DNA from: Microvirga lotononidis
Lineage (GTDB): Bacteria > Pseudomonadota > Alphaproteobacteria > Rhizobiales > Beijerinckiaceae
Assembly (NCBI RefSeq): GCF_034627025.1
Contig: NZ_CP141048.1
Location: 917,501-981,500 of the forward strand
Reading direction: 5' to 3'
Length of the DNA: 64,000 bases
Below are positions 28,402-43,029 of the stretch, one piece after another. The notes below the pieces were generated by a model that saw nothing but the letters and a program-made list of their open reading frames with translations, was not told where the DNA came from and did not search any database. Positions within the stretch are counted from its first letter, which is position 1. Every line of letters starts with the position of its first letter. The position numbers were made by a program, and so were the translations under genes.

Positions 28402-30039
28402 TTAACCGGCCGTTTCCCCATGACGATCGAACACGATCTCGCCGCCGCGAATCGTGAGATCGCACCGGGTGTCATGCAGGATGTCTTCAGGGGACGCCGT
28501 CAGGAGATCGCGGGAGAAGACCGCGACGTCGCCCGCAAGACCTGGATCGAGACGACCCCATTCATGCTCGGCTTTGTTCACATAGGCTCCGAATTCCGTG
28601 AAGGCCATGATCGCCTGCTCGATGGACACCACCTCCCGCTCGTCCATGACGGTTCCATGAGCCGTCTTGCGGGTCAGCATCGAGAAGAAGTTCGGAAAGG
28701 GATTGATGTCGCAGACCGGAGCATCACTGCCGGCGGCAGGCTTGAAACCGAGACCGATCCAGGTCCGAAGCGGATAGGACGGTTTCGCTCTCTTCTCGCC
28801 GACGACTGAAACATAGAGGTCGCCGAAATCGTAAATGAACACCGGCTGCGGCACCGGTTGAACGCCCAGGCGCTTCATGCGTGCATTCTGATCGGCTCTC
28901 GCATAGCCCGCATGCTCGATTCTGTGGCGGCGGTCCGGATCCGGCATCGCCTCGAGAGCAAGCTCGAAGGCATTGAGGGTCTGCTCGATCGCGGCATCGC
29001 CGATCGCATGAACGGCAAGCTGATAGCCCTTGGCGTGATAATCATGCACGAGGTCGTTCATCTCGTTGTCGTGCAGGAGCATGAGCCCATGGGTCTTCGG
29101 CTCTCCGAGATAGGGCTCGCTCATGGCGGCGGTTCGACCGCCCGCACTGCCGTCGGTGAAGATCTTCACGGGTCCGACGCGCAGCATGGAATCGCCCGCT
29201 CCCGTCACCACGCCGTCCGCATAAGCCTGCTCCACGATGCCGCCCGGGCCGCCGAGGAGGCACTGGGTCGTCCGAACGGGCAGGCGGCGGAGGCGCTGGG
29301 CCGTGCGATAGGCGGCGACCTCGCGGTATCCTGCCCTCATGCCGACGCCCGCATCCATCACGCTGGTGATGCCGTAGGACAGGCATGCGCGGCCGGCATC
29401 GTCGATGGCCTGAACGAGTTCCTGGTCCGTTGGCTCGGGCAGCACGGCCTTGAGCCGGTCGCGACCTGTCTCGGCCAGCAGACCGGTCAGCCGACCGTCC
29501 CGCTGCTCGATGGCGCCTCCCTGGGGGACCGGCGTCGTCTCGTCGATGCCCGCCAGCTCCAGCGCCTTCGAGTTGCAGATCGTCACGTGGCCGCAGGCCC
29601 GCACGATCGCGACCGGATGATCGGGCGCAACCGCGTCGAGTTCCTCACGGAGCGGATGGCGTCTCACATCGAGCTCGAACTGGTCGTAGCCGCGCCCTTG
29701 AATCCAATGGCCAGGCGGAGTGACGGCAGCGCGCTGCCGAACCTTGTCGAGCAGGGCCGCGAGCGTCGGCGCGGACGATGCGCGCACATCCACATGTCCC
29801 ATGATCACGCCGTAGGGGAGAAGATGCATGTGCGAGTCGCACAATCCCGGCGTGGCGAGGCGGCCCCGCAGATCGATCACCCGGGTCGACGGCCCGATCA
29901 GCGGCTCCATGTCGGATGTGCATCCGGCCGCGAGAACCTGTCCGGACCACAGGGCGACGGCTTCGGTCACCTGCTCTGAATATCCGCGGAACACGCGGCC
30001 GTTTGTGAGGACGATATCGGCTTTGGGCAGGATGGGCAT
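28402..30039 (-). CDS. YtcJ-like amidohydrolase (amidohydrolase family 3)
   Basis: 545-aa member of the YtcJ/NfdA (N-substituted formamide deformylase-like) branch. Metal-site motifs are CDSHMHL, KIFTDGSAGGR with the bridging Lys, VHAIGDAA, HRIEHAG and AGSDAPV. The family hydrolyses exocyclic C-N bonds such as formamides; the true substrate is unknown. ATG 30039 is taken as start because the protein then opens with the usual ADIVLTNGRVF strand; a TTG at 30057 is in frame. It diverges from the transporter genes and converges on the amidohydrolase operon, so it probably belongs to the same catabolic locus. Confidence 0.87.
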   Translation of the reverse strand: MPILPKADIVLTNGRVFRGYSEQVTEAVALWSGQVLAAGCTSDMEPLIGPSTRVIDLRGRLATPGLCDSHMHLLPYGVIMGHVDVRASSAPTLAALLDKVRQRAAVTPPGHWIQGRGYDQFELDVRRHPLREELDAVAPDHPVAIVRACGHVTICNSKALELAGIDETTPVPQGGAIEQRDGRLTGLLAETGRDRLKAVLPEPTDQELVQAIDDAGRACLSYGITSVMDAGVGMRAGYREVAAYRTAQRLRRLPVRTTQCLLGGPGGIVEQAYADGVVTGAGDSMLRVGPVKIFTDGSAGGRTAAMSEPYLGEPKTHGLMLLHDNEMNDLVHDYHAKGYQLAVHAIGDAAIEQTLNAFELALEAMPDPDRRHRIEHAGYARADQNARMKRLGVQPVPQPVFIYDFGDLYVSVVGEKRAKPSYPLRTWIGLGFKPAAGSDAPVCDINPFPNFFSMLTRKTAHGTVMDEREVVSIEQAIMAFTEFGAYVNKAEHEWGRLDPGLAGDVAVFSRDLLTASPEDILHDTRCDLTIRGGEIVFDRHGETAG

Positions 30040-30230
30040 GGACCACTCGCGCGGCAAGGGCGGGTGCAGCGGGCGCTGCAGTCGGAGGCGGGCGAGTGTG
30101 CATACCTTTTAGTCAATCAGCAAGATCCCAAACATCTTACGTTAGGAAATTCTATCCTTGAAACCTTGATTGTTTCGGGTCTAGCTTGAAGTACAGCGAC
30201 CAGATAAGGCGCAGAAAAAGAGGGAGTACA

Positions 30231-31268
30231 ATGATTCAATCGAAATCCTTAGGCCGGTGGCTCGCACTGGGCCTCATCGCCGGTGTCGCGTCTGTTTCCG
30301 CCGCGCCGGCATCTGCTCAATCGACCCTTGATACGGTCAAGAAGCGCGGCAAGATCCTGTGTGGCGTATCGCCGGTCGCTCCCGGCTTCTCCTATGCCGA
30401 CGACAAGGGCGTCCGGCGGGGCTTCGATGTCGACATCTGCCGCGCCGTGTCGGCCGCCATCTTCGCCGATCCCGACAAGGTCGAATATGTTCCGCTGAAC
30501 ACCAATGTCCGGTTCCAGGCGGTTCAGTCCGGAGAGGTCGACATCCTCTCCCGCCAGAACACCTGGAGCTTCTCGCGCGATGCCTCCCTCGGCCTCGATT
30601 TCGGCCCCGTGGTGTTCTACGACGGCCAGGGCCTGATGGCTCCGGCCAAGCTCAACGTGAAGAGCGCCAGCGAACTCGCCGATGCGGCGATCTGCCTGCT
30701 GCCTGGAACGACGACCCTTCAGAACCTGGAGGATTTCTTCCGGCCCAAGAACATCAAGTACGAATCCGTGGTGTTCGAGAACTCCGACGAATGGCGCAAT
30801 GCCTTCTTCAACGGACGCTGCGATGCCATCACGACGGATCGCTCTGACCTCGCTTCCGTCCGTGCGATCGCCAACGACCCGTCGCAATATGTCGTCCTGC
30901 CGGAGACCATCTCGAAGGAGCCGCTTGCACCGACGATCCGCCAGAACGATCCCAACTGGCGCGATATTCTGAACTGGTCGATCTATACCCTCATCGGCGC
31001 AGAGGAGAAGGGCGTTACCCAGGCGAATGTCGATGAGCAGCTCAAGAGCGAGGATCCCGAGATTCAGCGCATGCTCGGCGTGAACGGCGACTTCGGGAAG
31101 ATGCTCGGCCTCGACAACAAATGGGGCTACAACATCATCAAGTCGCTCGGCAATTACGGCGAGGTCTTCGACCGTAATCTCGGCCCGAAGACCCGGCTGG
31201 GCCTGACGCGCGGCCCGAACGAGCTCTGGACCAAGGGCGGCCTGCTTTACGCGCCCCCGTTCCGGTAG
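30231..31268 (+). CDS. General L-amino-acid-type ABC transporter periplasmic binding protein (AapJ-like)
   Basis: 345-aa solute-binding protein. The signal peptide (GRWLALGLIAGVASVSAAPASA) is cleaved near residue 30. A SBP_bac_3 fold follows, with TVKKRGKILCGVSP and RGFDVDICRAVSAA; RQNTWSFSRDASLGLDF is typical of AapJ/BztA. ATG 30231 has AGAGGGAG upstream; the in-frame ATG at 30186 is less likely. A terminator-like hairpin after its stop probably leaves the binding protein more abundant than the permeases. Position beside amidohydrolases suggests import of an amide or amino-acid-like compound. Confidence 0.9.
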   Translation: MIQSKSLGRWLALGLIAGVASVSAAPASAQSTLDTVKKRGKILCGVSPVAPGFSYADDKGVRRGFDVDICRAVSAAIFADPDKVEYVPLNTNVRFQAVQSGEVDILSRQNTWSFSRDASLGLDFGPVVFYDGQGLMAPAKLNVKSASELADAAICLLPGTTTLQNLEDFFRPKNIKYESVVFENSDEWRNAFFNGRCDAITTDRSDLASVRAIANDPSQYVVLPETISKEPLAPTIRQNDPNWRDILNWSIYTLIGAEEKGVTQANVDEQLKSEDPEIQRMLGVNGDFGKMLGLDNKWGYNIIKSLGNYGEVFDRNLGPKTRLGLTRGPNELWTKGGLLYAPPFR

Positions 31269-31279
31269 TCTGAGATCGA

Positions 31280-31307
31280 CGGGTGGCCTCAGGGCCACCC
31301 GTTTCCC
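31280..31307 (+). terminator. Partial terminator between binding protein and permease
   Basis: ACGGGTGGCC (31280-31289), a 4-nt loop and GGCCACCCGT (31294-31303) form a perfect 10-bp hairpin followed by TTCCCC. The weak T-run suggests partial termination or 3' mRNA protection, as is usual between binding-protein and permease genes. Confidence 0.65.
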
Positions 31308-31334
31308 CCTCAGTCCTATCCGGAAAGGATCATC

Positions 31335-32507
31335 ATGCGCGTCGATGCGATGAGCGGGACGAGACTCCTGTACAATCTGCGTTTTCGGGCGATCCTGTAT
31401 CAAGTGATCGCCGTCGGAAGCATCGTCCTCCTCGGACTTTATCTGTTCTCCAACGTATCGCAGAAGCTGGCCGAGCAGAATATCGCCACGGGCTTCGGCT
31501 ACCTGAGCCGTGAAGCGGGCTTCGTGATCAGCCAGACATTGATCGACTACAAGCCCACCGATACGTATGGCCATGCCATCCTGGCCGGCATCGTCAACAC
31601 GGTCTGGGTTTCGGCCTGGAGCGTGGTGCTCGCGACGATCATCGGGCTTTTCGTCGGCATCGCCCGTCTTTCCCGCAACCCGCTGCTGGCGCTGCTGGCC
31701 TTTCTCTATGTGGAGGCTTTGCGCAATGTGCCTCTGCTTCTCTATCTCTTCCTCTGGTACGCCCTGATCGTCACGAGCCTGCCGGCCGTGCGCGAAGCAT
31801 GGGAAATCCTGCCCCATGTCTTCTTGAGCAACAGCGGCCTGACCGTACCGTCCCTCTTGTGGACCGGTGCCCATACGATCGTTCTCCTGGCGCTTGTGCT
31901 CGGAGGTGCTCTCGGGATTTTCGTTCACCGCCGGGCGACGGCTCTGCGGATCAGCACAGGCAAGACGCGGACGACGTGGCCCTGGGTCGCCCTGGCTCTT
32001 CTGGTCCCTCCGATGCTCGCGATCTTGATCGTGCAGCCCGACCTGACTGTCAGCCTTCCGGAGAAGGGACGCTTCCGCCTGACGGGCGGTGCCCAGCTCA
32101 GGCCGGAATTCACAGCCCTTCTGGTGGGCCTTGCTCTGTCGGCTTCCGCGGGCATCGCCGAGATCGTGCGAAGCGGGATTTTGTCGGTTCGCAAAGGGCA
32201 ATGGGAGGCAGCTCGCGCGCTGGGCCTGCGCGATGGATTGACAATGCGCCTCGTCATTCTTCCCCAGGCGCTCCGCGTGATCATTCCGCCGCTCACAAGC
32301 AGCTACCTGAGCCTGTTCAAGAACTCGTCTCTCGCCATCGCGATCGGCTATCCGGATCTCGTCATGGTCTCGAATACGACCATGAACCAGACCGGACAGG
32401 CCATCGAGGGCATTGCGATCTTCATGCTCGTCTATCTCGGCCTGTCGATCATGATTTCCCTGTTCATGAACTGGTACAACAGCCGCGTCGCGCTGAAGGA
32501 GCGCTAG
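31335..32507 (+). CDS. Amino-acid-type ABC transporter permease (AapQ-like)
   Basis: 390-aa inner-membrane permease. It has several hydrophobic spans and the cytoplasmic EAA-loop EAARALGLRDGLTMRLVILPQ-like region that docks the ATPase. The N-terminal half has the AapQ/BztB extended region with a periplasmic loop (SQKLAEQNIATGFGYLSREAG). The next permease gene starts 3 nt after its stop. It is the heteromeric partner of that protein. Confidence 0.9.
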   Translation: MRVDAMSGTRLLYNLRFRAILYQVIAVGSIVLLGLYLFSNVSQKLAEQNIATGFGYLSREAGFVISQTLIDYKPTDTYGHAILAGIVNTVWVSAWSVVLATIIGLFVGIARLSRNPLLALLAFLYVEALRNVPLLLYLFLWYALIVTSLPAVREAWEILPHVFLSNSGLTVPSLLWTGAHTIVLLALVLGGALGIFVHRRATALRISTGKTRTTWPWVALALLVPPMLAILIVQPDLTVSLPEKGRFRLTGGAQLRPEFTALLVGLALSASAGIAEIVRSGILSVRKGQWEAARALGLRDGLTMRLVILPQALRVIIPPLTSSYLSLFKNSSLAIAIGYPDLVMVSNTTMNQTGQAIEGIAIFMLVYLGLSIMISLFMNWYNSRVALKER

Positions 32508-32510
32508 GCC

Positions 32511-33623
32511 ATGACGACCGCGACCGACATCGCCGAAGCCCAGTTGAAGATGCCGGTTCGACGGGAGCCGGATATCGGCCGCCGCCTGCTGCATCGTACG
32601 CTCAAGCCTCTCATCGGGACGCCGCTCAATGCGGTGATCACGCTCGCTTGCCTGTGGGTCCTGTGGCTTGGCGCCAAGGGCGCCTATGGCTGGCTCGTGA
32701 CCCGGGCGGTCACGGAAGGAGGCGCCCAGGCCTGCAAGGTCGGCAACGGAGCCTGCTGGCCCTTCTATGAGGCGAAGCTGCGCTTCATGATCTTCGGCGT
32801 CTATCCCTATGACGAGCAGTGGCGTGTGCTGCTCGCCATGATCCTGTTTCTCGGCGCCATGGGGATCACCATGATCCCGCGCTTCTGGAGCAGAAATCTT
32901 CTCGTGCTCTGGGGCGTCACGATCGTCGCGACGGCGATCCTGATCGGGGGTGGCGTATTCGGCCTCTCCTATGTGCCGACGACGCAATGGAGCGGGTTAC
33001 CGCTTTCGTTTCTGCTGTCCGCGGTCGGGCTCGCCTTCGGCTTTCCTCTCGGCGTCGTTCTCGCCTTGGCCCGCTCGTCGACGCTCCCTGCCATCCGAGT
33101 GATCGCCATCATCTTCATCGAGGTGATTCGAGGCGTGCCGCTGATCAGTATCCTGTTCATGGCATCCGTGATGCTGCCGCTCTTCATGCCAAGCGGTGTC
33201 ACGGTGGACAAGCTGCTGCGGGCGCAGATCGCCATCATCATCTTTGCAGCGGCCTATATCGCGGAGGCGGTCCGTGGCGGATTGCAGGCGATCCCTCGAG
33301 GGCAGCACGAGGCCGCCAGCGCGATGGGCCTGCATTACTGGCAAGCCATGCGCCTCATCGTTCTGCCGCAGGCATTGAAGATCGCCATCCCTCCGCTCGT
33401 CAACATTTCCATCGGCTTCTTCCAGGACACGACGCTCGTCACGATCATCGGCCTCCTGGACTTCCTGTCTACGGTCCGCACGGCCATGACGGACCCGAAC
33501 TGGGTCGGTATCGCGGTCCTCGAAGGCTACGTCTTCGCGGCCTTCGTTTTCTTGGTGTTCTCATACGGAATGGGAGCATACAGCCGCTTCCTGGAGCGGC
33601 GAATGCGCCTCGGCCACGACTAA
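32511..33623 (+). CDS. Amino-acid-type ABC transporter permease (AapM-like)
   Basis: 370-aa inner-membrane permease with the conserved EAASAMGLHYWQAMRLIVLPQ-like EAA loop and the AapM/BztC segment GLPLSFLLSAVGLAFGFPLG. It forms the translocation pore with the preceding permease. In standard aapJQMP loci an ATPase gene (aapP) follows at once. Here the next gene is a minus-strand oxidoreductase and no ATPase is present, so the complex must use an ATPase encoded elsewhere. Confidence 0.9.
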   Translation: MTTATDIAEAQLKMPVRREPDIGRRLLHRTLKPLIGTPLNAVITLACLWVLWLGAKGAYGWLVTRAVTEGGAQACKVGNGACWPFYEAKLRFMIFGVYPYDEQWRVLLAMILFLGAMGITMIPRFWSRNLLVLWGVTIVATAILIGGGVFGLSYVPTTQWSGLPLSFLLSAVGLAFGFPLGVVLALARSSTLPAIRVIAIIFIEVIRGVPLISILFMASVMLPLFMPSGVTVDKLLRAQIAIIIFAAAYIAEAVRGGLQAIPRGQHEAASAMGLHYWQAMRLIVLPQALKIAIPPLVNISIGFFQDTTLVTIIGLLDFLSTVRTAMTDPNWVGIAVLEGYVFAAFVFLVFSYGMGAYSRFLERRMRLGHD

Positions 33624-33641
33624 CCCCCCATCTGAGAGGGC

Positions 33642-34937
33642 TCAGGCGGCGCGTGCCGCCTGACGCTCTTTTGCGCGATCCAGGGCCTGGTAGGTCCAGT
33701 ATGTGAGCTGCGCCGCAGCAACCCCGAACGGTCCTCCATTCCACGCGAGGCTGAAGGGTTCGTAGAGACGGTAGCGATCACTCGTACCGAGGATTCCTTC
33801 GGCGATCACGCGCCCTCCGATGGCCGTCGTGTTCATGCCGCGCCCGCCGAAGCCGAACACGTGCCAGACGCCAGGCTGCAGCTTGCCGATGAGCGGCATC
33901 AGATGGCGTGCATAGGCCATGAGGCCCGACCAAGCCGTCTCCACACGCACGCCTTCGAGCTGTGGATAGGTGGAGGCCATCGTCTTCTGCATCATCTCGG
34001 CAAGACGACGCGGTTCGGTCGTGCGCGTCGTGATCCGTCCGCCCCAGAGAAGCCGTGTTCCTTCATCGACAACGCGGTAGTAATCGCCTGCGCGCCGGTT
34101 GTCGCTGATCGCCATCGGCGTCAGCACCGCCTGTGCGATTTTCTCCGGCGCCGATTCCGTCAGGAGGACATAGGTTGCAATCGGGAGAATGCTGCGCCGC
34201 AAGCGGGGCACCAGATTGTCCGTATAGCCGCCGCCTGCCAGGACCACGTCACGGGCCCTGACTTCACCGCGCTCCGTCCTGACGACCTTCTCCGCACCAT
34301 CGAAATCGCATCCGGTCACGCGTGAGCCTTCGAAGATTTTCCCGTTCAGGTCCTCGATCGCCTTCGCCAGGGAGCGGGCATAGTTGAGGGGATGGAAGTG
34401 AAAGGATGCGGAATCGTAGAGCGCCTGAAAATACTTCGGCGAGCGCAGGACGGCGCGTACGGCGTCGGCCTGCATCACCTCCACGTGGTAGTCGAAAGTT
34501 CTCTTCAGCATCTCGCATTGGCGCGCGAGGCTCTCAGGATCGTGGTAGCGCAGCACGCTCATCTTGCCATAAACGCGCTTGTTCTCGGTCATACCGAGAC
34601 CATCGAGGTTTCCCTCGACGATCCGTACACCCTCGATCGAGAGCCTGTGCAAGGCTTCCGCCCGCTCGCTGCCGACCATGCGGGAGATGTTGGCATGGCT
34701 CGTCGCGTAGCCCGGGCCGACGAAGCCTCCATTGCGCCCCGATGCCCCCCAGCCGACCCGCTCGGACTCCAGAACCACGACCGACCGGCCTGCCCGGGCC
34801 AATTCGAGAGCTGCCGTGAGACCTGCTAATCCTCCCCCGACAATGGCGACATCGGCCTTGACCGTCCCTGCGAGCGAATGTCGTTGGGAAGCATCCGCGA
34901 GTGTACGGGCGTAGTAGGTGTCGCCATAGCCGGTCAT
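33642..34937 (-). CDS. FAD-dependent oxidoreductase, DAO family (PuuB-like)
   Basis: 431-aa flavoenzyme. The N-terminal dinucleotide fold VAIVGGGLAGLTAALELARAG and WGASGRNGGFVGPGY are typical of gamma-glutamylputrescine oxidase and related D-amino-acid-oxidase-family enzymes. The C-terminal flavin segment is HVFGFGGRGMNTTAIGG. It probably oxidises a secondary amine or amino-acid-like product of the neighbouring amidohydrolases. ATG 34937 has a GGGGGG ribosome-binding site; an in-frame ATG at 34979 adds 14 residues. It is convergent with the permease genes. Confidence 0.87.
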   Translation of the reverse strand: MTGYGDTYYARTLADASQRHSLAGTVKADVAIVGGGLAGLTAALELARAGRSVVVLESERVGWGASGRNGGFVGPGYATSHANISRMVGSERAEALHRLSIEGVRIVEGNLDGLGMTENKRVYGKMSVLRYHDPESLARQCEMLKRTFDYHVEVMQADAVRAVLRSPKYFQALYDSASFHFHPLNYARSLAKAIEDLNGKIFEGSRVTGCDFDGAEKVVRTERGEVRARDVVLAGGGYTDNLVPRLRRSILPIATYVLLTESAPEKIAQAVLTPMAISDNRRAGDYYRVVDEGTRLLWGGRITTRTTEPRRLAEMMQKTMASTYPQLEGVRVETAWSGLMAYARHLMPLIGKLQPGVWHVFGFGGRGMNTTAIGGRVIAEGILGTSDRYRLYEPFSLAWNGGPFGVAAAQLTYWTYQALDRAKERQAARAA

Positions 34938-34972
34938 GAAGCCCCCCAATCCAGGTGATCTTCGCAAAGCGT

Positions 34973-35008
34973 AGCGCATCCTACGGAAAAGTGGACCCGG
35001 TTTTCTCC
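34973..35008. repeat. Dispersed palindromic repeat, copy 2
   Basis: AGCGCATCCTACGGAAAAG followed by TGGACCCGGTTTTCTCC resembles the element at 22034-22085. It lies upstream of the flavin oxidoreductase, and the reverse-complement end is less well preserved. Confidence 0.45.
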
Positions 35009-35072: not shown

Positions 35073-36536
35073 CTATGATCCGATCCCGTTCCGACGACCA
35101 CGCGCGGAACTCCTTCTGCGAGTGGTCCAGAGCTCCTGCGCCCTCCTCAGATGCTCCTCGAAGGATTCCGCAGTTTTGCTCATCGTGAGAAGCGCGACGG
35201 CAACCGTGTGGGTTATGATGGCAACGGCCCGCTCGTCACGAATGGTGCCCTCCCACACGCCGTGCCAGTATTCGAGGCTTGTCATTCCCGCCAGAGCGTA
35301 GGCCTTCGGCTCCGGCTGCGCCGGAACAAGGAGATCTTCCGCCAAACCGTCCACCAGGCGGAGGAGCGTGCTCGAGCGGAAGGGCGTTGCCTCGGCGGCG
35401 TCGCGGCTTGCGCCAAGGATGGTCATGTTCCGGCACCCGAGGATCGACCCTGCATCGCGATGCAGGTCGCGGTAGGCCGGGCGCACGACGCCCATCACGC
35501 TTGCGGGAGCACCGAAAGGGTTGACGAGCGGCATGAGGGAATGGATCGGCGATCGCGTTTCAAGTACGCTGTAGAGCGACAGCAGACGGTGGATCTGCGA
35601 GGATAGAGCAGCTATCGGGATATAGACGATCCCGACATCCGCTATCGCGTCGAAGGCTGCCGCAGGGCTCGCGCAGACGGGAATGCCGATGGCTCTCGCC
35701 GCCGATACGAGCGTGCCCCTGGTGTTGGCACTGCCGTCGTTGCCATGCAGGAGGATACGGTGGCCGGACTGGGCCAGCAGCAGGGCAGCCTGGAGAAACC
35801 AGGGCATTCGTCTGGATTTCGGGGAGATGTAGGCCGGCCAGTCGAGATCGATCGCGATCTCCGGTTTCATGATGTCGATGTGGGCACGCGCCGCTCGAGC
35901 GAACCCCGCAAGCTCGGCTGCCGTTTCTCCCCGGAAGTGCATGACTGAGAGCAGTGCTCCGACCTGCACCGGATCAGCCTTTCCGTCGAGAATAATGGAG
36001 AACGCATCCTGCGCTTCGCTCATCGTGAGGGGGCGGCTGTGTCCGATGCCGGCAGCGATTGTGGCAATGTGCTTGGCAAGCCGCTTGCGGGAATCCTCAG
36101 CTTTCCCAAGGGTCGCGAGTTTTAGCGCGAAGGCCTCGGGAAGTGGCTCCCCCTCCAGCAGGATGCTCGGCCTCGTCGTCAGGGGAGCTGCTTCGATGAC
36201 CGGGCTTCCTGGCATGTCCATTGGATCGATGGCGACGCGCATCGGCGATGCATCGTCCCGCCGCAAGAGAGCTTCCGCCTCGGCCGCCAAGGCACGGATG
36301 CGTTGCCGCATGGATTCCGCGAACGGCGTTGGAATGAGCCGTCGGGACGAGCGAACGAAGATCGGGTCGCCATAGACCTCGCGGATCTGTCCGAGGAGGC
36401 GGCTCATCGCGGGCGTTCCCATCCCCATCCGCTCGGCTGCGCGGCTGACGCTTCCCACCACCAGCAGAGCATCAAGCGCCAAGAGGAGACGGAGATGACC
36501 GAGCTTCAGGGAGTGTTCTTCGGCTGCAGATGTCAC
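35073..36536 (-). CDS. LysR-type HTH fused to a TrpD2/YbiB-like glycosyltransferase-family-3 domain
   Basis: 487-aa protein of unusual design. Residues about 10-92 are a LysR-type winged helix-turn-helix and linker helix (SVSRAAERMGMGTPAMSRLL, then GDPIFVRSSRRLIPT). Instead of a LysR effector domain, about 145-220 match the helical GT3 N-terminal domain (LTMSEAQDAFSIILDG, MHFRGETAAELAGFARA), and about 230-470 match the GT3/TrpD-like domain of YbiB (SRRMPWFLQAALLLAQSGHR, LLHGNDG). The PRPP-binding GTGGD loop of true anthranilate phosphoribosyltransferases is absent, so enzyme activity is doubtful. TrpD2 proteins can bind nucleic acid. I infer a regulator sensing a nucleotide- or heterocycle-like ligand and controlling the adjacent catabolic genes. 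The start at 36536 is tentative. Confidence 0.78.
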   Translation of the reverse strand: MTSAAEEHSLKLGHLRLLLALDALLVVGSVSRAAERMGMGTPAMSRLLGQIREVYGDPIFVRSSRRLIPTPFAESMRQRIRALAAEAEALLRRDDASPMRVAIDPMDMPGSPVIEAAPLTTRPSILLEGEPLPEAFALKLATLGKAEDSRKRLAKHIATIAAGIGHSRPLTMSEAQDAFSIILDGKADPVQVGALLSVMHFRGETAAELAGFARAARAHIDIMKPEIAIDLDWPAYISPKSRRMPWFLQAALLLAQSGHRILLHGNDGSANTRGTLVSAARAIGIPVCASPAAAFDAIADVGIVYIPIAALSSQIHRLLSLYSVLETRSPIHSLMPLVNPFGAPASVMGVVRPAYRDLHRDAGSILGCRNMTILGASRDAAEATPFRSSTLLRLVDGLAEDLLVPAQPEPKAYALAGMTSLEYWHGVWEGTIRDERAVAIITHTVAVALLTMSKTAESFEEHLRRAQELWTTRRRSSARGRRNGIGS

Positions 36537-36597
36537 AATTTTTCTGTCTTCAAGACCTATGGTGGAATGGCCGCATGATGATCGGGAAATGTCTCAT

Positions 36598-36624
36598 CGT
36601 GGAACGGCTATTCCTCATTCCACG
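36598..36624. promoter_or_regulatory. Inverted repeat in the divergent regulator/receptor region (candidate operator)
   Basis: CGTGGAA (36598-36604) and TTCCACG (36618-36624) are perfect complements 13 nt apart. They lie about 60 bp upstream of the LysR-TrpD2 fusion gene. The geometry suits a dimeric HTH regulator; autoregulation is inferred. Confidence 0.4.
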
Positions 36625-36777: not shown

Positions 36778-38997
36778 ATGAGAGGGACCACTAAGCAGAC
36801 TCGGCAGGATTCAAAGAGGGGGCCTTCAACCTCCTCGGCTCCCATCGCACTGCCAGAATCCGCCGTCTCGCGCTCTCAGTGCGGGGGGTACAAGACGGGC
36901 CGAAAGATCGCCGTGCTTCTCGCCTGCACGAGCCTGTCGACAGTTCTTCTCCTCAGCCCTGGAGCTGCCATGGCGCAGGACGTCGAAGCCAGTGCCGCTC
37001 CTGGTAACGATGACGTGATCAACCTGGACCAGATCGTCGTGACGGCCTCCGGGTTCGAACAGACTGTGAAGAATGCGCCTGCGAGCATCTCCGTCATCAC
37101 GCGGGAGGAACTGGAGAGAGGTTCCTTTCGTGATCTGACCGACGCTTTGCGGGAGGTTCAGGGTGTTGTCGTCACCGGTGTCGCCAACGAGAAGGACATG
37201 TTCATCCGCGGACTTCCGGGCACCTACACGCTGATTCTCGTCGATGGGAAGCGGCAGAGCACCAGAGATGCGCGCACCAACGGCAATGCCGGTTTCGAAC
37301 AGAGCTTCATTCCTCCCGTTACGGCCATCGACCGCATCGAGGTCGTGCGGGGCCCGATGTCCTCCCTTTATGGCTCCGACGCCATGGGTGGCGTCATCAA
37401 CATCATCACACGCAAGGTATCCGACAACTGGACGACCTCCGTCACGGCGGACGGCACGCTCCAGCAGCACGAGTATTTCGGCAATTCGGCGCAAGGCTCG
37501 TTCTACACGAGCGGCCCGCTCATCCACCGTATGCTCGGGCTTCAATTGTGGGGACGCGGGTTCGGCCGCCGCGAGGATGATTTCCTCAGCGGCATCACAG
37601 GAGCCCGCGAAGGCAATATTGGCGGACGGCTGACCTTCACCCCGACCGAGAACCACGACATCATGCTTGAAAGCGGTTTCACGCGCATCCGCCGCGACGC
37701 GTCTAAATGGGGAACGCTCGAGAGCACCGCCAACGACACTTACAATCACAATGACCGCAAGTATTGGTCGCTCACCCATGAGGGGCGCTGGGGTCCCACG
37801 ACCTCGACATTCTCGATCATGCAGGAATGGGCGGAGCGACGGAGCTACACGGAGAATCCACGCACGCTCGCTTTCGATAAGAATCCGCGCTCGCCCGAGA
37901 TCCGCAACACGATCGTCGACGGAAAGTTCACCACTCCTTTCGATTTTTTCGGAACCCACACGCTCGTCACGGGCGGCCAATGGTCCAACGCCTCGCTCGA
38001 CGACCAGAATCCGGGTCGGCGCACGCGCATCGACGAGACGTTCACGATCAACCAGTGGGCTCTCTTCGCCGAAGACGAATGGCGCCTCACCGACACCTTC
38101 TCGCTCACGAACGGGCTGCGCATGGATCACCATGAGATCTACGGCGCCCATTATAGTCCTCGCAGCTACGCGGTGTGGCACGCCACCGGGAACCTGACCC
38201 TGAAGGGAGGTCTCTCGACCGGTTTTCGGGCTCCCGAGATCCGCCAGATCGCGCCGGGCTACGCCTATACGACAGGCGGCGCGGGCTGCAGCTACGGGCC
38301 CAACGGAACCTGCGGCGTCATTCTGGCCGACCCCAATCTGCAGGCGGAAACGAGCACGAGCTACGAGATCGCCGCTCTCTGGGACAATCTCGACGGCTTC
38401 ACCGCGAGCGCAACCTATTTCTACACGGATTTCCGTGACAAGATCAGCAACGCGCTGGTTCTGGACGACGCCGGCAACCCGGTGCGCTGGTCGGAAGATC
38501 CGAACTATCGCCTCTGGTACAACTACAACATCGACGATGCGGTCATCCAAGGCGTCGAGCTGGCTGCAAGCTGGCGCGCCACGGAATCGATATCGATCCG
38601 CGGCAGCTACACCTTGACGGATTCCGAGCAGCGGACGGGCGACTTTGCGGGCTTCCCGCTCGCCCGCACGCCCCGGCACATGGCCAATGCGCGCCTGGAT
38701 TGGAACACGCCGATCACCGGGCTCTCGACCTGGACGCAGGTGAACTACCACGGCGCGGAAATTGTGGGCGGCGCACGCATCGGCACGAACGGCACGCCCG
38801 TCATCATCAACGGCGCAGCCGGTCGAAGGTACGATGCCTACGCCACGATGGATACGGGCCTGACCTATAACTTTACCGAGAAGCTTGCCCTGAACGCCGC
38901 CATCTACAACGTCTTCGACAAGGAGATCGAACCTACTGACCACAACACGGTGGTGGAGGGACGGCGCCTCTGGATCGGCATGTCGGCGACCTTTTGA
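36778..38997 (+). CDS. TonB-dependent outer-membrane siderophore receptor (FepA-like)
   Basis: 739-aa outer-membrane receptor. A signal peptide core lies unusually far in (about 43-66, ending GAAMAQD) after a 40-residue hydrophilic extension. The TonB box region is about 75-85 (LDQIVVTASG). The plug domain is about 95-205 (MFIRGLPGTYTLILVDGKRQ; RIEVVRGPMSSLYGSDAMGG), then a 22-strand barrel ending in Phe (MSATF). Overall similarity is to catecholate siderophore receptors of the FepA/PfeA/IrgA type. It starts the iron-uptake locus followed by a binding protein, two permeases and an ATPase. ATG 36778 has GGGACAG upstream. Confidence 0.9.
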   Translation: MRGTTKQTRQDSKRGPSTSSAPIALPESAVSRSQCGGYKTGRKIAVLLACTSLSTVLLLSPGAAMAQDVEASAAPGNDDVINLDQIVVTASGFEQTVKNAPASISVITREELERGSFRDLTDALREVQGVVVTGVANEKDMFIRGLPGTYTLILVDGKRQSTRDARTNGNAGFEQSFIPPVTAIDRIEVVRGPMSSLYGSDAMGGVINIITRKVSDNWTTSVTADGTLQQHEYFGNSAQGSFYTSGPLIHRMLGLQLWGRGFGRREDDFLSGITGAREGNIGGRLTFTPTENHDIMLESGFTRIRRDASKWGTLESTANDTYNHNDRKYWSLTHEGRWGPTTSTFSIMQEWAERRSYTENPRTLAFDKNPRSPEIRNTIVDGKFTTPFDFFGTHTLVTGGQWSNASLDDQNPGRRTRIDETFTINQWALFAEDEWRLTDTFSLTNGLRMDHHEIYGAHYSPRSYAVWHATGNLTLKGGLSTGFRAPEIRQIAPGYAYTTGGAGCSYGPNGTCGVILADPNLQAETSTSYEIAALWDNLDGFTASATYFYTDFRDKISNALVLDDAGNPVRWSEDPNYRLWYNYNIDDAVIQGVELAASWRATESISIRGSYTLTDSEQRTGDFAGFPLARTPRHMANARLDWNTPITGLSTWTQVNYHGAEIVGGARIGTNGTPVIINGAAGRRYDAYATMDTGLTYNFTEKLALNAAIYNVFDKEIEPTDHNTVVEGRRLWIGMSATF

Positions 38998-39319
38998 AAG
39001 CTCCTCCCCTCCTCCCTCCACTAAGCATCGTTCTCCGAACGACGGACAGGAACAGGCATGGCACAGGACGGTATGACGGATATTCACGAGGGACCGCGCC
39101 GGCGCCCCCTCTCAGGACCTGGACTTTTCGTGTCGGCGAAAGCTTTGACGGAGAACCCAACATGCGCCGCGTCGTCCCGACGGCGGACGATACGGCGAAT
39201 TCATCTACAAGCCAGGACAGGCACTCGTTTGGCGACGTGGCCGGATCGGCGGACACGACCATGTGGACGACTGAATGCCCGTATGCCGCAGAAAACGCGA
39301 TAACCAGAGAATTGGAGTG
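38998..39319 (+). other. Intergenic stretch without a supported gene
   Basis: The 322 bp between the receptor and binding-protein genes contain short open frames in all three plus frames, for example GEFIYKPGQALVWRRGR near 39194 and GESFDGEPNMRRVV near 39140 in another frame. The protein-like pieces sit in different frames, so this may be a decayed gene. I see no motif strong enough to name it. Confidence 0.35.
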
Positions 39320-40249
39320 ATGATGACTTTCCCGGCCCGCTACCCGCTCGCCGCCCTCGTTGCCGGCGCCTTGGCCCTCGGCTCCGTAACGGTCGGCGCT
39401 CAGGCGCAGGATCTGACGATCCAGCATGCCAAGGGCGAGACGACCCTCTCCCGGAAGCCTCCGAAGGTCCTCGCGTTCGACATGGCCTCGCTCGATACGC
39501 TGAATGCCCTGGGTGTCGAGGTTGCCGGCGTCCCGACGGCCCGATTCCCGGAATATCTCGCGAAGTACACTTCGGATCGATACGAGAAAATCGGCACCCT
39601 GTTCGAGCCCGATTACGAAGCGGTCAACGCGGCCGAACCCGATCTCATCATTGTGGGGGGCCGCTCCAGCGCCAAATATGCCGACTTGGCGAAGATCGCG
39701 CCGACCATCGATCTCACGGTCGACCCGAAGGACTTCATGAGCAGCGTGAAGCGCAACGTGCGGGTTCTCGGCAAGATTTTCGACAAGGAACCGGAGGCCG
39801 AGACTCAGCTGGCCAAGCTTGAGACATCCATCGCTGATCTTCGCCAGGATGCCGCCAAGGCCGGCAAGGGACTTCTGGTCCTCACGACAGGCGGCAAGAT
39901 GAGCGCCTACGGCCCCGGCTCGCGCTTCGGGATCCTTCATGGGGAATTCGGGATCGTGCCCGTGGTCGAGGGCTTGGCCACGACCAACCACGGGCAGGCG
40001 GTGTCGGCGGAGTTCATTCTCAAAACCGATCCGGACTGGCTTTTCGTGATCGACCGGGACGCGGTGGTCGGTCGGGAAGGCGGCGCGGCCAAGAACGTGC
40101 TGGACAACGAACTCGTCGCCCAGACCACGGCCTGGAAGCAGAAGCAGGTCGTCTATCTCGACCCCGTCAATTGGTACCTGGTCGGCGGCGGGCTGACCGC
40201 CCTGCAGGCCAGCGTCGATCAGATTGCCAAGGCCGTGGCGAAGAAGTAA
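39320..40249 (+). CDS. Siderophore ABC transporter periplasmic binding protein (FatB/CeuE/YclQ-like)
   Basis: 309-aa class III binding protein. The signal peptide is cleaved near VGAQAQD. The body follows the FatB/CeuE pattern: KPPKVLAFDMASLDTLNALG, then EPDYEAVNAAEPDLIIVGGR, and a C-terminal lobe with LVAQTTAWKQKQVVYLD. This family binds catecholate siderophores or their iron complexes in the periplasm. It is exported but lacks a clear lipobox. ATG 39320 follows TTGGAG. It delivers ligand to the permeases encoded downstream. Confidence 0.9.
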   Translation: MMTFPARYPLAALVAGALALGSVTVGAQAQDLTIQHAKGETTLSRKPPKVLAFDMASLDTLNALGVEVAGVPTARFPEYLAKYTSDRYEKIGTLFEPDYEAVNAAEPDLIIVGGRSSAKYADLAKIAPTIDLTVDPKDFMSSVKRNVRVLGKIFDKEPEAETQLAKLETSIADLRQDAAKAGKGLLVLTTGGKMSAYGPGSRFGILHGEFGIVPVVEGLATTNHGQAVSAEFILKTDPDWLFVIDRDAVVGREGGAAKNVLDNELVAQTTAWKQKQVVYLDPVNWYLVGGGLTALQASVDQIAKAVAKK

Positions 40250-40308: not shown

Positions 40309-41319
40309 ATGTGGAACCTAGGGCCGGTCGAAGGCCCGCTGAAGCCCCGAGCGCCCGTGAGATCCCTCCTCCTTGTCCTGGCAGCCGTCATGGTCCTGGC
40401 TCTGATCAGCCTGCTGATCGGAGCGAGCGATCTGTCGCCGGCGAGCCTCCTTTCGCCACAGGATGGAAGCCAGGCGACTCGGATTCTCGTGGTGTCCCGG
40501 ATCCCCAGGACCGTCGCCCTCGTCCTGGCCGGCATGGCCATGGCGGTGGCCGGACTGATCATGCAGATGCTGACCCAGAACCGGTTCGTCGAGCCGTCGA
40601 CGGCGGGAACCGTCGAGTCGGCTGGCCTCGGCCTTCTGACCGTAACGCTCTTCGCCCCCGACTTGCCCGTTTTCGGCAAGATGCTGGTGGCGGCCGGCTT
40701 TGCCCTGGCTGGAACCGCCCTGTTCCTGCGCATTCTTCGCCTCGTCCCCCTGCGCTCCGTCCTGACGGTGCCGCTGGTCGGCATCATGCTGGGCGGCATC
40801 ATCAGCGCGATCACCACGTTCTTCGCCTATCGTTTCGACCTGATGCAGTCCCTGAACGCCTGGACGACCGGGGACTTTTCCGGCGTCCTTCGCGGCCGCT
40901 ACGAGCTGCTGTGGGTGACCTTCGGCCTGACTCTTCTCGCCTATCTGGCCGCCGACAGGCTCACGCTGGCCGGGACGGGGCGTGACTTCTCGACCAATCT
41001 GGGCCTGCGCTACCGAAGCGTGGTGTCCTTCGGGCTGGTCATCGTCTCCATGGTGACGGCGACCGTCGTCGTCACGGTCGGCATGATGCCGTTCCTCGGC
41101 CTGATCGTGCCGAACGTGGTGAGCATGATGATCGGAGACAACATGCGCCGCGCCCTGCCCCGGGTTGCCGTGATGGGCGCGGGCCTCGTGCTGGTCTGCG
41201 ACGTGATCGGACGGGTGGTGTATTACCCATACGAGGTTCCCATCGGAACCATCATGGGGGTCGTCGGCAGCGCACTCTTTCTGGTTCTTCTGCTGAAGGG
41301 GCGCGGGCGCTTTGCGTAA
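40309..41319 (+). CDS. FecCD-family siderophore ABC transporter permease (CeuB/YclN-like)
   Basis: 336-aa inner-membrane permease of the BtuC/FecCD family with about nine or ten spans. It shows SRIPRTVALVLAGMAMAVAG, GDFSGVLRGRYE and GMMPFLGLIVPNVVSMMIG, the family core. It pairs with the next permease to form the iron-siderophore channel. ATG 40309 is close to the attenuator; GTG 40357 is an alternative start. Its stop overlaps the next gene by 8 nt. Confidence 0.9.
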   Translation: MWNLGPVEGPLKPRAPVRSLLLVLAAVMVLALISLLIGASDLSPASLLSPQDGSQATRILVVSRIPRTVALVLAGMAMAVAGLIMQMLTQNRFVEPSTAGTVESAGLGLLTVTLFAPDLPVFGKMLVAAGFALAGTALFLRILRLVPLRSVLTVPLVGIMLGGIISAITTFFAYRFDLMQSLNAWTTGDFSGVLRGRYELLWVTFGLTLLAYLAADRLTLAGTGRDFSTNLGLRYRSVVSFGLVIVSMVTATVVVTVGMMPFLGLIVPNVVSMMIGDNMRRALPRVAVMGAGLVLVCDVIGRVVYYPYEVPIGTIMGVVGSALFLVLLLKGRGRFA

Positions 41320-42274
41320 CACAGACCTGCATCCAATCCGCGTGCTCGTGATTCTCGCCGCCGTCGCGGCGGCGGTGATCGTGCTGTTCATGACGGTCAA
41401 CGCCAAGGGACGGTGGGATTTCATCCTGGCCTTTCGCGGCGCGAAGGTTCTGTCCATGATCCTGGTCGCCTATGCCATCGCGGTGTCGACCGTGCTGTTC
41501 CAGACGGTGAGCCACAACCGGATCCTGACGCCCTCGATCATGGGCTTCGACGCCCTCTACGGCCTCCTTCAGACCGGCCTGATCTTCGCGCTTGGATCGG
41601 CAGGATTGGGCGCCTTGGATCCGCGCCTGCTGTTCGGGATCGAGGTCGTCACGATGGTGGCGTTCTCCAGCCTCCTGTATCGCTGGCTCTTCTCCGGCAA
41701 CAGCCGCAGCCTTCACCTGCTGCTTCTCGTCGGCATCGTCTTCGGCGTGCTGTTCCGAAGCCTCGCCGGCTTCATGCAGAGGATCATCGATCCCAACGAG
41801 TTCGTCGTCCTGCAGGACCGCCTGTTCGCGAACTTCAACAGCGTCAACGACGACCTGCTGGCCGTCTCGACCGCGGCGGTCGTGGCCGTCTCCATCGTAG
41901 GCTGGCGGATGATGCATGCTTACGACGTGCTGGCCCTGGGGCGGGAAGCAGCCATCAATCTCGGTGTCGATCACACAAGGGCCGTGACGATCGTGCTCAT
42001 GCTGGTGGCCATCCTGATCTCGGTCTCCACCGCCCTCGTCGGTCCCGTGACCTTCTTCGGCTTGCTGGTCGCCAATCTCGCCTACCAGATCGCCGGATCC
42101 CACAAGCACCGCTTCATTCTGCCGGTCGCAAGTCTGTTGGCGGTCATCTGCATCGTCGGCGGACAGCTTGTCCTCGAGCGGATCTTCGCCTTCGACACGG
42201 CGCTCAGCATCGTCATCGAATTCGTGGGCGGGATCGTCTTCCTCGCCCTCCTGATCAGAGGAACGGCCCGTTGA
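41312..42274 (+). CDS. FecCD-family siderophore ABC transporter permease (CeuC/YclO-like)
   Basis: 320-aa inner-membrane permease, second half of the heterodimeric channel. Family motifs include FQTVSHNRILTPSIMGFDALY and VGPVTFFGLLVANLAYQ. The TTG start at 41312 overlaps the preceding gene, and its stop overlaps the TTG start of the ATPase gene (TTGA), so the cassette is translationally coupled. Confidence 0.9.
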   Translation: MRNTDLHPIRVLVILAAVAAAVIVLFMTVNAKGRWDFILAFRGAKVLSMILVAYAIAVSTVLFQTVSHNRILTPSIMGFDALYGLLQTGLIFALGSAGLGALDPRLLFGIEVVTMVAFSSLLYRWLFSGNSRSLHLLLLVGIVFGVLFRSLAGFMQRIIDPNEFVVLQDRLFANFNSVNDDLLAVSTAAVVAVSIVGWRMMHAYDVLALGREAAINLGVDHTRAVTIVLMLVAILISVSTALVGPVTFFGLLVANLAYQIAGSHKHRFILPVASLLAVICIVGGQLVLERIFAFDTALSIVIEFVGGIVFLALLIRGTAR

Positions 42275-43029
42275 TCGAAATCTCTCATGCAAGCAAAGCC
42301 TATGGTGACACCATCGTCGTGCGCGACGTGTCGCTCACTCTGCCCCGGCGAGGCGTCACCTCGATCATCGGCCCGAACGGCGCCGGCAAGTCCACGCTTC
42401 TGTCGATGGTCGGCCGCCTGCTGCCCATGAGTGCCGGGACGGTGACGATTGATGGGCTCGACATCACGCGGACGCCGTCGGACATTCTCGCCAGGCGCTT
42501 GTCCATTCTCCGCCAGGACAACCGGATCAATGCGCGCCTGACCGTTCGCGACCTGGTCGAATTCGGCCGCTATCCCTATTCCAAGGGCCGCCTCACGCCG
42601 GACGACCGGTCCCAGGCGGACAAGGCCATCGGGTTCCTGGGCTTGGAACCGCTGGCGGAGCGCTTCCTCGACGAATTGTCCGGCGGGCAGCGGCAGCGGG
42701 CCTATGTCGCCATGGTGCTGTGCCAGGATACGGACTATGTGCTTTTCGACGAGCCCTTGAACAATCTCGACATGAAGCACGCGGTGGGCATGATGAAGCT
42801 GCTGCGCCGGGCGGCCGACGACCTGGGCAAGACCATCGTCGTCGTCCTCCACGATATCAACTTCGCATCCTGCTACTCCGACTACATCGTCGCCATGCGC
42901 GACGGAGCCATCGTCCGCCACGGCACGCCCGACGAAACGATGACGGCCAGCGTGATCCGGGACGTCTACGACATGGATGTCACGATTCAGGACATGGAGG
43001 GACGGAAGATCGCGCTCTACTACGTCTGA
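42271..43029 (+). CDS. Siderophore ABC transporter ATP-binding protein (CeuD/YclP-like)
   Basis: 252-aa ABC ATPase. It has Walker A GPNGAGKST, Q-loop LRQDN, signature ELSGGQRQRAYVAM, Walker B YVLFDEPLNNLD and H-loop VLHDINFAS. It energises the two FecCD permeases. TTG 42271 overlaps the preceding stop by 3 nt; other starts would break the coupling. It completes a full uptake cassette: receptor, binding protein, two permeases and ATPase. No siderophore biosynthesis genes are present, so scavenging of foreign siderophores is likely. Confidence 0.92.
   Translation: MIEISHASKAYGDTIVVRDVSLTLPRRGVTSIIGPNGAGKSTLLSMVGRLLPMSAGTVTIDGLDITRTPSDILARRLSILRQDNRINARLTVRDLVEFGRYPYSKGRLTPDDRSQADKAIGFLGLEPLAERFLDELSGGQRQRAYVAMVLCQDTDYVLFDEPLNNLDMKHAVGMMKLLRRAADDLGKTIVVVLHDINFASCYSDYIVAMRDGAIVRHGTPDETMTASVIRDVYDMDVTIQDMEGRKIALYYV

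Follow-up and report, generated by a model that had tools for sequence, protein, structure and literature searches.

Genes and features of the locus

The window analysed here is a 64,000-nucleotide stretch of the Microvirga lotononidis genome (NZ_CP141048.1, positions 917,501 to 981,500). It holds a gene on the minus strand that joins a LysR-type winged helix-turn-helix (HTH) to a TrpD-fold domain, with a TonB-dependent receptor gene divergent from it and genes of a siderophore ABC transporter beyond. In window coordinates, the features are:

35073–36536, minus strand: LysR-HTH/TrpD2-like fusion regulator gene (487 amino acids)
36315–36494, minus strand: HTH_1 winged helix-turn-helix, residues 15–74, with a linker helix on to residue 91
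36117–36191, minus strand: conserved stretch, residues 116–140, about half of it within a low-confidence part of the structure model
35106–36104, minus strand: TrpD-fold (PRK09071) domain, residues 145–477, without the GTGGD loop
36668–36713, minus strand: conserved intergenic block GTCAA-N6-TGTTTnAGAnnnnTTCTnAnTTC-N3-AA-N3-GCAA, a candidate site for control of the two divergent promoters
36778–38997, plus strand: TonB-dependent receptor, probably catecholate type, divergent from the fusion gene
39275–40249, plus strand: periplasmic siderophore-binding protein (Peripla_BP_2; best NCBIfam match SstD, 162.5 against a cut-off of 450)
40309–41319, plus strand: FecCD-family permease 1
41312–42274, plus strand: FecCD-family permease 2
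42268–43029, plus strand: ABC transporter ATPase (best NCBIfam matches FecE and FhuC, below cut-off)

The best NCBIfam matches of the receptor are PRK13483, PRK13513, IreA, PRK13486, CirA, CfrA and FepA, all below cut-off, and a catecholate type is therefore likely. No DHB-AMP ligase scores over cut-off in this genome (best 232.2 bits, cut-off 723.55), which fits the uptake of foreign catecholates. A separate cluster of amidohydrolase-like, amino-acid ABC transporter and FAD-oxidoreductase genes (28402–34979) adjoins the regulator; its FAD oxidoreductase (33645–34979), just downstream on the same strand, has L-pipecolate oxidase AmaA as best NCBIfam match (170.3 against 600). Codon GC also picks out an open reading frame on the minus strand (42085–42921), opposite the end of permease 2 and the ABC ATPase. 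Frames of this kind are picked in 12 of 80 other loci (best 80 of 144 relatives) and are probably shadow frames.

A LysR-type HTH joined to a TrpD fold

Pfam places HTH_1 at residues 15–74 (E 4.8e-12), Glycos_trans_3N at 167–219 and Glycos_transf_3 at 249–469 of the fusion protein, all above the gathering score, Glycos_transf_3 barely so (27.1 versus 27). Sequence matches in the PDB split in the same way, with LysR-type chains at residues ~14–99 and TrpD/YbiB chains from about residue 155, and residues 144–481 match TrpD/YbiB folds. Among NCBIfam models, PRK09071 (NF006564) covers residues 145–477 at 330.2 bits (cut-off 257); the protein falls below the cut-offs of the YbiB equivalog (96.6 against 185 bits) and of trpD (69.5 against 199 bits). 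An earlier sequence-only reading of this gene had recognised the N-terminal LysR HTH and a TrpD/TrpD2-type fold in place of the effector domain, and both assignments hold. The LysR PBP-like substrate-binding domain is absent from the Pfam matches of the protein even at E ≤ 10, residues 145–470 included. Nor does the frame join two genes by error, because the same architecture recurs across many genera: a LysR-type winged HTH joined to a TrpD-fold domain in one frame is a real fusion.

In the structure model, the linker helix after the HTH spans residues 71–91, with pLDDT block means of 85 (71–80) and 71 (81–90), and is a putative dimerisation helix of the LysR type. The stretch at 116–140, in which P118, P131, P133 and L140 are present in 77 of 77 fusions, may form a hinge.

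Distribution and origin of the fusion

A protein search returned 209 proteins at E ≤ 1e-10 among 7,995 candidates scored. For the matches listed (120 of 209), precomputed annotation gives HTH_1 in 110 and Glycos_trans_3N in all 120; their source names are mostly ‘glycosyl transferase’ or ‘anthranilate phosphoribosyltransferase’, with LysR in none, and one (P0011) adds ‘molybdenum-dependent DNA-binding transcriptional regulator’. One protein labelled Mycolicibacterium aubagnense (P0118) is very close in alignment to P0086 from Mesorhizobium loti, and contamination or mislabelling is possible. A scan of genome contigs found 144 relatives, of which the best 80 were taken as fusion loci, so that closer relatives are over-represented. 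These best 80 of 144 come from Microvirga, Aminobacter, Agrobacterium, Rhizobium, Ensifer, Mesorhizobium, Nitratireductor, Brucella/Ochrobactrum, Azospirillum, Novispirillum and others; one locus, L072, looks frame-damaged. The survey for the same fusion elsewhere, suggested with the sequence-only reading, thus reveals a conserved class of probable regulators.

Within Microvirga the gene is patchy, since 12 of 37 genomes have a match at E ≤ 1e-20, the window’s own included and one a fragment. Across the order, a scan of 397 genomes with at most three candidates scored per genome gave a match in 35, of which 7 (the window’s included) match from the HTH on and the other 28 only from about residue 139 on. 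Fusion relatives are also plasmid-borne, in 42 of 72,556 plasmid records, 21 of those predicted to be conjugative.

A quick tree without bootstrap was built from 32 fused domains (the window’s and 31 from the best 80 of 144 loci) together with 38 distinct unfused relatives. Six wrong-frame rows (L114, L120, L126, L137, L138 and L144) and duplicates of one gene were left out of the unfused set. All fused domains group in a single clade (SH-aLRT 100), and the unfused PRK09071 proteins do not fall on one side of a branch once that clade is included. The fused clade is therefore nested within the unfused PRK09071 family, and the fusion probably arose once, inside it. Among CC-licensed PMC papers, we recognised no report of a LysR-HTH/TrpD-fold fusion.

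Linkage to siderophore receptors

Linkage was counted by tblastn, with the window’s receptor and one Azospirillum receptor among the queries. A TonB-dependent receptor is encoded in 79 of the 80 fusion loci (best 80 of 144), at most 900 bp away in 75 of them and farther in L072, L090, L094 and L102; the sole locus without one, L025, is a 3.4-kb contig. Ten of the 79 receptors match that of the window at just 27–34% identity (E 1e-52 or better), and their substrates may therefore differ. Siderophore-binding-protein and FecCD matches accompany the fusion in 51 of the best 80 of 144 loci by tblastn, a count to be read with the two permeases in mind, which are paralogues, so that a single gene may be hit by either query; clustering places each of the two permease clusters in 50 of the same 80 (best 80 of 144). 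Siderophore ABC genes are not nearby in 28 of the 79 receptor loci (best 80 of 144). Also found near fusions, again among the best 80 of 144, are a siderophore-interacting (SIP) reductase in 12 loci, a PF00756 esterase in 15 and a PKHD hydroxylase in 10. In most loci the fusion gene is divergent from its probable target. Loci of unfused relatives have a receptor in 0 of 20 by tblastn, these 20 being author-chosen and 9–14 kb long versus mostly ~21 kb for fusion loci.

Of three plasmid records examined through their own annotation, two agree, with a TonB receptor gene divergent from the fusion in Cereibacter and in Shinella. The third, from Pannonibacter, agrees in part: it has divergent siderophore-ABC genes, with no receptor in the 13.4 kb covered. 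Receptor type was tested in two loci, the window (CirA/IreA/FepA-like) and the Azospirillum locus L083 (Fiu-like). Azospirillum-type loci place a fusion of the same clade beside another receptor type, Fiu-like where tested: the L083 receptor scores 310 against 686 with the Fiu model and 272.7 with the siderophore-receptor model TIGR01783, over its cut-off of 223.5. The PKHD hydroxylase, in its 10 loci, goes with Azospirillum-type fusions. In Escherichia coli MG1655 (L180, 832000–846000), ybiB lies a few genes from fiu, for a catecholate receptor, and ybiX, for a PKHD hydroxylase; this resembles the receptor–hydroxylase pair of the Azospirillum fusions, maybe by chance.

A conserved block between the divergent genes

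Anchoring by tblastn placed 81 of 81 intergenic regions. In an alignment of 69 Hyphomicrobiales sequences, with 11 Rhodospirillales-type loci and the truncated L095 set aside, a 46-bp block GTCAA..TGTTTtAGAacnaTTCTaAaTTC...AA...GCAA is kept column by column. Its CAA columns are conserved in 68, 69 and 68 of 69 sequences and its GCAA columns in 66, 65, 69 and 67; the G and T of GTCAA are looser, with 46 of 69 reading GTCAA. Compared with the T-N11-A dyad expected of LysR-type operators, the majority columns of the block read TAGAACnATTCTA, but the window reads GAGACTCATTCTG. Searched at ≤3 mismatches, 33 bases of the block occur nowhere else in the genome, a weak result in that the reversed control is likewise at 0.

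Across the intergenic regions, no dyad operator appears to be conserved. One candidate operator, the palindrome TCGTGGAATG-N9-CGTTCCACGA at 36592–36620, conspicuous in the window, was rejected, its core occurring in 0 of 80 other intergenic regions (best 80 of 144). A promoter scan between the divergent genes found no sigma-70-like promoter; a TTGACC/TACTAG pair spotted by eye (36709–36714/36733–36738) is a guess at one.

The block may instead be a site for Irr. Scanned with a consensus that we take to be that of the Irr box (ICE), 52 of 57 non-Microvirga Hyphomicrobiales regions have a match at ≤3 mismatches versus ~1.2% of shuffles. As the whole explanation, an Irr box fits several observations poorly. 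The conserved block is longer than an Irr box; in Microvirga the best ICE-like match lies beside the block, not inside it, in 11 of 12 regions; and just 1 of 11 Azospirillum-type regions has a match at ≤3 mismatches. In the window’s own genome, the consensus at ≤2 mismatches occurs in 9 places versus 5 for the reversed control, none of them at the fusion’s intergenic region. In 9 of 11 Rhodospirillales-type regions there is a stretch like ATCATTATC, loosely defined and reminiscent of a Fur box, a count with no control run. Given these likenesses to Irr and Fur boxes, iron control of the receptor promoter is likely on sequence grounds. Irr is described as a repressor of its genes under iron depletion (PMC3413700), which also counts against Irr as the whole explanation.

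Loss of the PRPP loop

The PRPP loop of the old active site has been replaced. In the enzyme, the GTGGD loop contacts the PRPP phosphate (PMC9835598). The motif is present in 0 of 77 fusions, in line with the sequence-only reading, and in 0 of 38 distinct unfused relatives. In its place the fusions read DWPxYxSP, with D, W and P in 77 of 77, Y and S in 75 each and the last P in 76; the Lys of KHGN is also lost. R378 and D379 (77 of 77 fusions each), Y322 (76 of 77) and E326 (73 of 77) each occur in 0 of 38 distinct unfused relatives, and W424 occurs in 76 of 77 fusions versus 1 of 38. Several of these fusion-specific residues appear from the alignment to lie at or near the old catalytic loops.

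R328, present in 77 of 77 fusions, aligns with an Arg of the genome’s own TrpD; we take its column to be that of the anthranilate-site Arg, which contacts the carboxylate, and to correspond to R193 of M. tuberculosis TrpD. R193 is the anthranilate-site Arg of the M. tuberculosis enzyme (PMC9835598). H264 is likewise found in 77 of 77 fusions. Because YbiB and 38 of 38 unfused relatives keep both residues, R328 and H264 are no sure sign of an anthranilate-like ligand. Residue E382 aligns with a Glu of the genome’s TrpD; 61 of the 77 fusions have E here and 16 have Q.

Fusion has gone along with a more basic domain, whose median net charge is +3 (77 proteins) versus −5.5 for unfused relatives (38); by the same measure YbiB is −3 and TrpD −7. 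This also fits contact with nucleic acid, although net charge says little on nucleic-acid binding, because YbiB itself is −3.

Proposed mechanism and alternatives

We propose, at somewhat better than even odds, that the fusion protein is a dimeric local regulator of siderophore uptake, probably of catecholates, with a dead TrpD fold as sensor and dimerisation module. Regulation of the adjacent receptor is the strongest part, highly probable and well supported by context; action as an activator, not a repressor, is fairly probable; the sensing of a small molecule by the TrpD-fold domain is slightly favoured; and a catechol-type ligand is a tentative suggestion. We infer that the protein dimerises and that it binds the intergenic block. 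The LysR-type winged HTH and linker helix would contact the conserved block between the divergent genes, and the TrpD-fold domain, in place of a PBP-like sensor, would hold the dimer together. A small molecule would be sensed in the cleft that corresponds to the anthranilate/PRPP site of TrpD, and the ligand we favour is an aryl- or catechol-siderophore that has been imported, or the part of it that resembles 2,3-dihydroxybenzoate. Once bound, the ligand would turn on expression of the receptor and ABC operon, so coupling one receptor to one xenosiderophore, and a global iron regulator acting on the same promoter would bring in iron status.

Anthranilate and 2,3-dihydroxybenzoate are ortho-substituted benzoates, both made from chorismate. 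In a more speculative extension, which we rate as rather unlikely, the anthranilate site of the dead TrpD fold became a sensor of catechol-type (aryl) siderophores and the PRPP half was rebuilt; R378, D379, Y322 and E326 there might accommodate the iron or the remainder of the siderophore. This would give LysR-type HTH regulators a new class of effector domain, one that pairs a single receptor with a single foreign siderophore.

The alternative that survives best, possible and to our minds well short of even odds, keeps the same regulator and target and makes the TrpD fold YbiB-like, a dimerisation and second nucleic-acid- or protein-binding module with no ligand, with Irr, RirA or Fur supplying all iron or ligand input at the promoter they would share. 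Among TrpD2 proteins the best studied is YbiB, whose basic grooves bind nucleic acids and the C-terminus of ObgE (PMC10123104). The net positive charge of the fused domain and the Irr-box matches in 52 of 57 regions (≤3 mismatches, versus ~1.2% of shuffles) agree with such a module, but the charge says little in view of the −3 of YbiB. The fusion-specific residues at or near the old catalytic loops suggest instead that the cleft is under selection, and repression by Irr under iron depletion, as described (PMC3413700), is opposite to what uptake genes need.

The sequence-only reading had raised the possibility of a sensor of a nucleotide, PRPP or an N-heterocycle beside a catabolic island for such compounds; that such a sensor controls the adjacent catabolic and amino-acid-transport genes is very improbable. 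The fold is that of PRPP-binding enzymes and an FAD oxidoreductase is encoded next downstream in the same direction, but the PRPP loop is replaced, the Lys of KHGN is gone, and the neighbours that recur are TonB-receptor and siderophore-ABC genes. Of the genes at 28402–34979, taken earlier as a linked catabolic island, only the amidohydrolase has cluster members elsewhere, in 4 of 80 loci (best 80 of 144), all of them from Brucella/Ochrobactrum or other Rhizobiales; the amino-acid ABC and FAD-oxidoreductase genes have no cluster members in any other of these loci (best 80 of 144). A bifunctional protein that is still a transferase or phosphorylase, for example on a siderophore, is hardly credible, for all the E or Q at 382 and the invariant H264, with DWPxYxSP replacing the PRPP/phosphate loop in nearly all of the 77 fusions and TrpD2 proteins reported (PMC10123104) to be without catalytic function.

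Few kinds of bacterial regulator are as common as the LysR type, and to our knowledge its members nearly always use one sensor fold. A conserved family with a dead metabolic enzyme in place of that fold, and a TonB receptor gene nearby in 79 of 80 loci (best 80 of 144), would add a new class of signal input. Such a family would also hint at the way in which many rhizobia and azospirilla select among receptors for foreign siderophores, and records that at present bear tryptophan-pathway or glycosyl transferase names would be corrected.

Comparison with known systems

The fusion protein has neither the effector domain that defines LysR-type regulators nor the TrpD catalytic motif. With canonical LysR-type proteins it shares the winged HTH and the long linker helix, but where these have a PBP-like effector domain it has a TrpD fold. 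Anthranilate phosphoribosyltransferase (TrpD) has the GTGGD catalytic motif, whereas the fusion is without it and under the trpD cut-off. Nearest in fold are YbiB and the unfused PRK09071 proteins. YbiB/TrpD2 shares a TrpD fold without the PRPP loop, and the fusion is under the YbiB cut-off. As to the unfused PRK09071/NF006564 proteins (‘glycosyl transferase family protein’), the C-terminal domain of the fusion is over the family cut-off and branches inside the family. Those proteins are, however, stand-alone chains of ~335 amino acids with no HTH and are mostly acidic, as opposed to 487 amino acids with an HTH, and they lack R378, D379, Y322 and E326 (0 of 38 each) and, in all but 1 of 38, W424.

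The unfused proteins also keep different company, with Dsr-like, molybdopterin-oxidoreductase or DsrC-like neighbours in 12 of 20 loci and a receptor in none of the 20; Pfam was run on representatives of these neighbours. Five loci (L163, L173, L175, L178 and L179) lie among DsrK/L/O/P-like genes and a CobB/CobQ-type amidotransferase gene, four (L166, L171, L172 and L177) follow a molybdopterin oxidoreductase gene, with a tetrapyrrole methylase in two, and three (L161, L162 and L164) are beside DsrC-like genes. The Dsr, nitrate-assimilation and siroheme names are those we presume for these genes, and siroheme or a sulfite/nitrite reductase may be the common thread.

By function, the nearest known analogue would be IrgB of Vibrio cholerae, an ordinary LysR protein and local regulator of a catecholate receptor. 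IrgB is described as an activator of the IrgA enterobactin receptor (PMC7600106); the fusion described here would do a comparable job with a different sensor fold.
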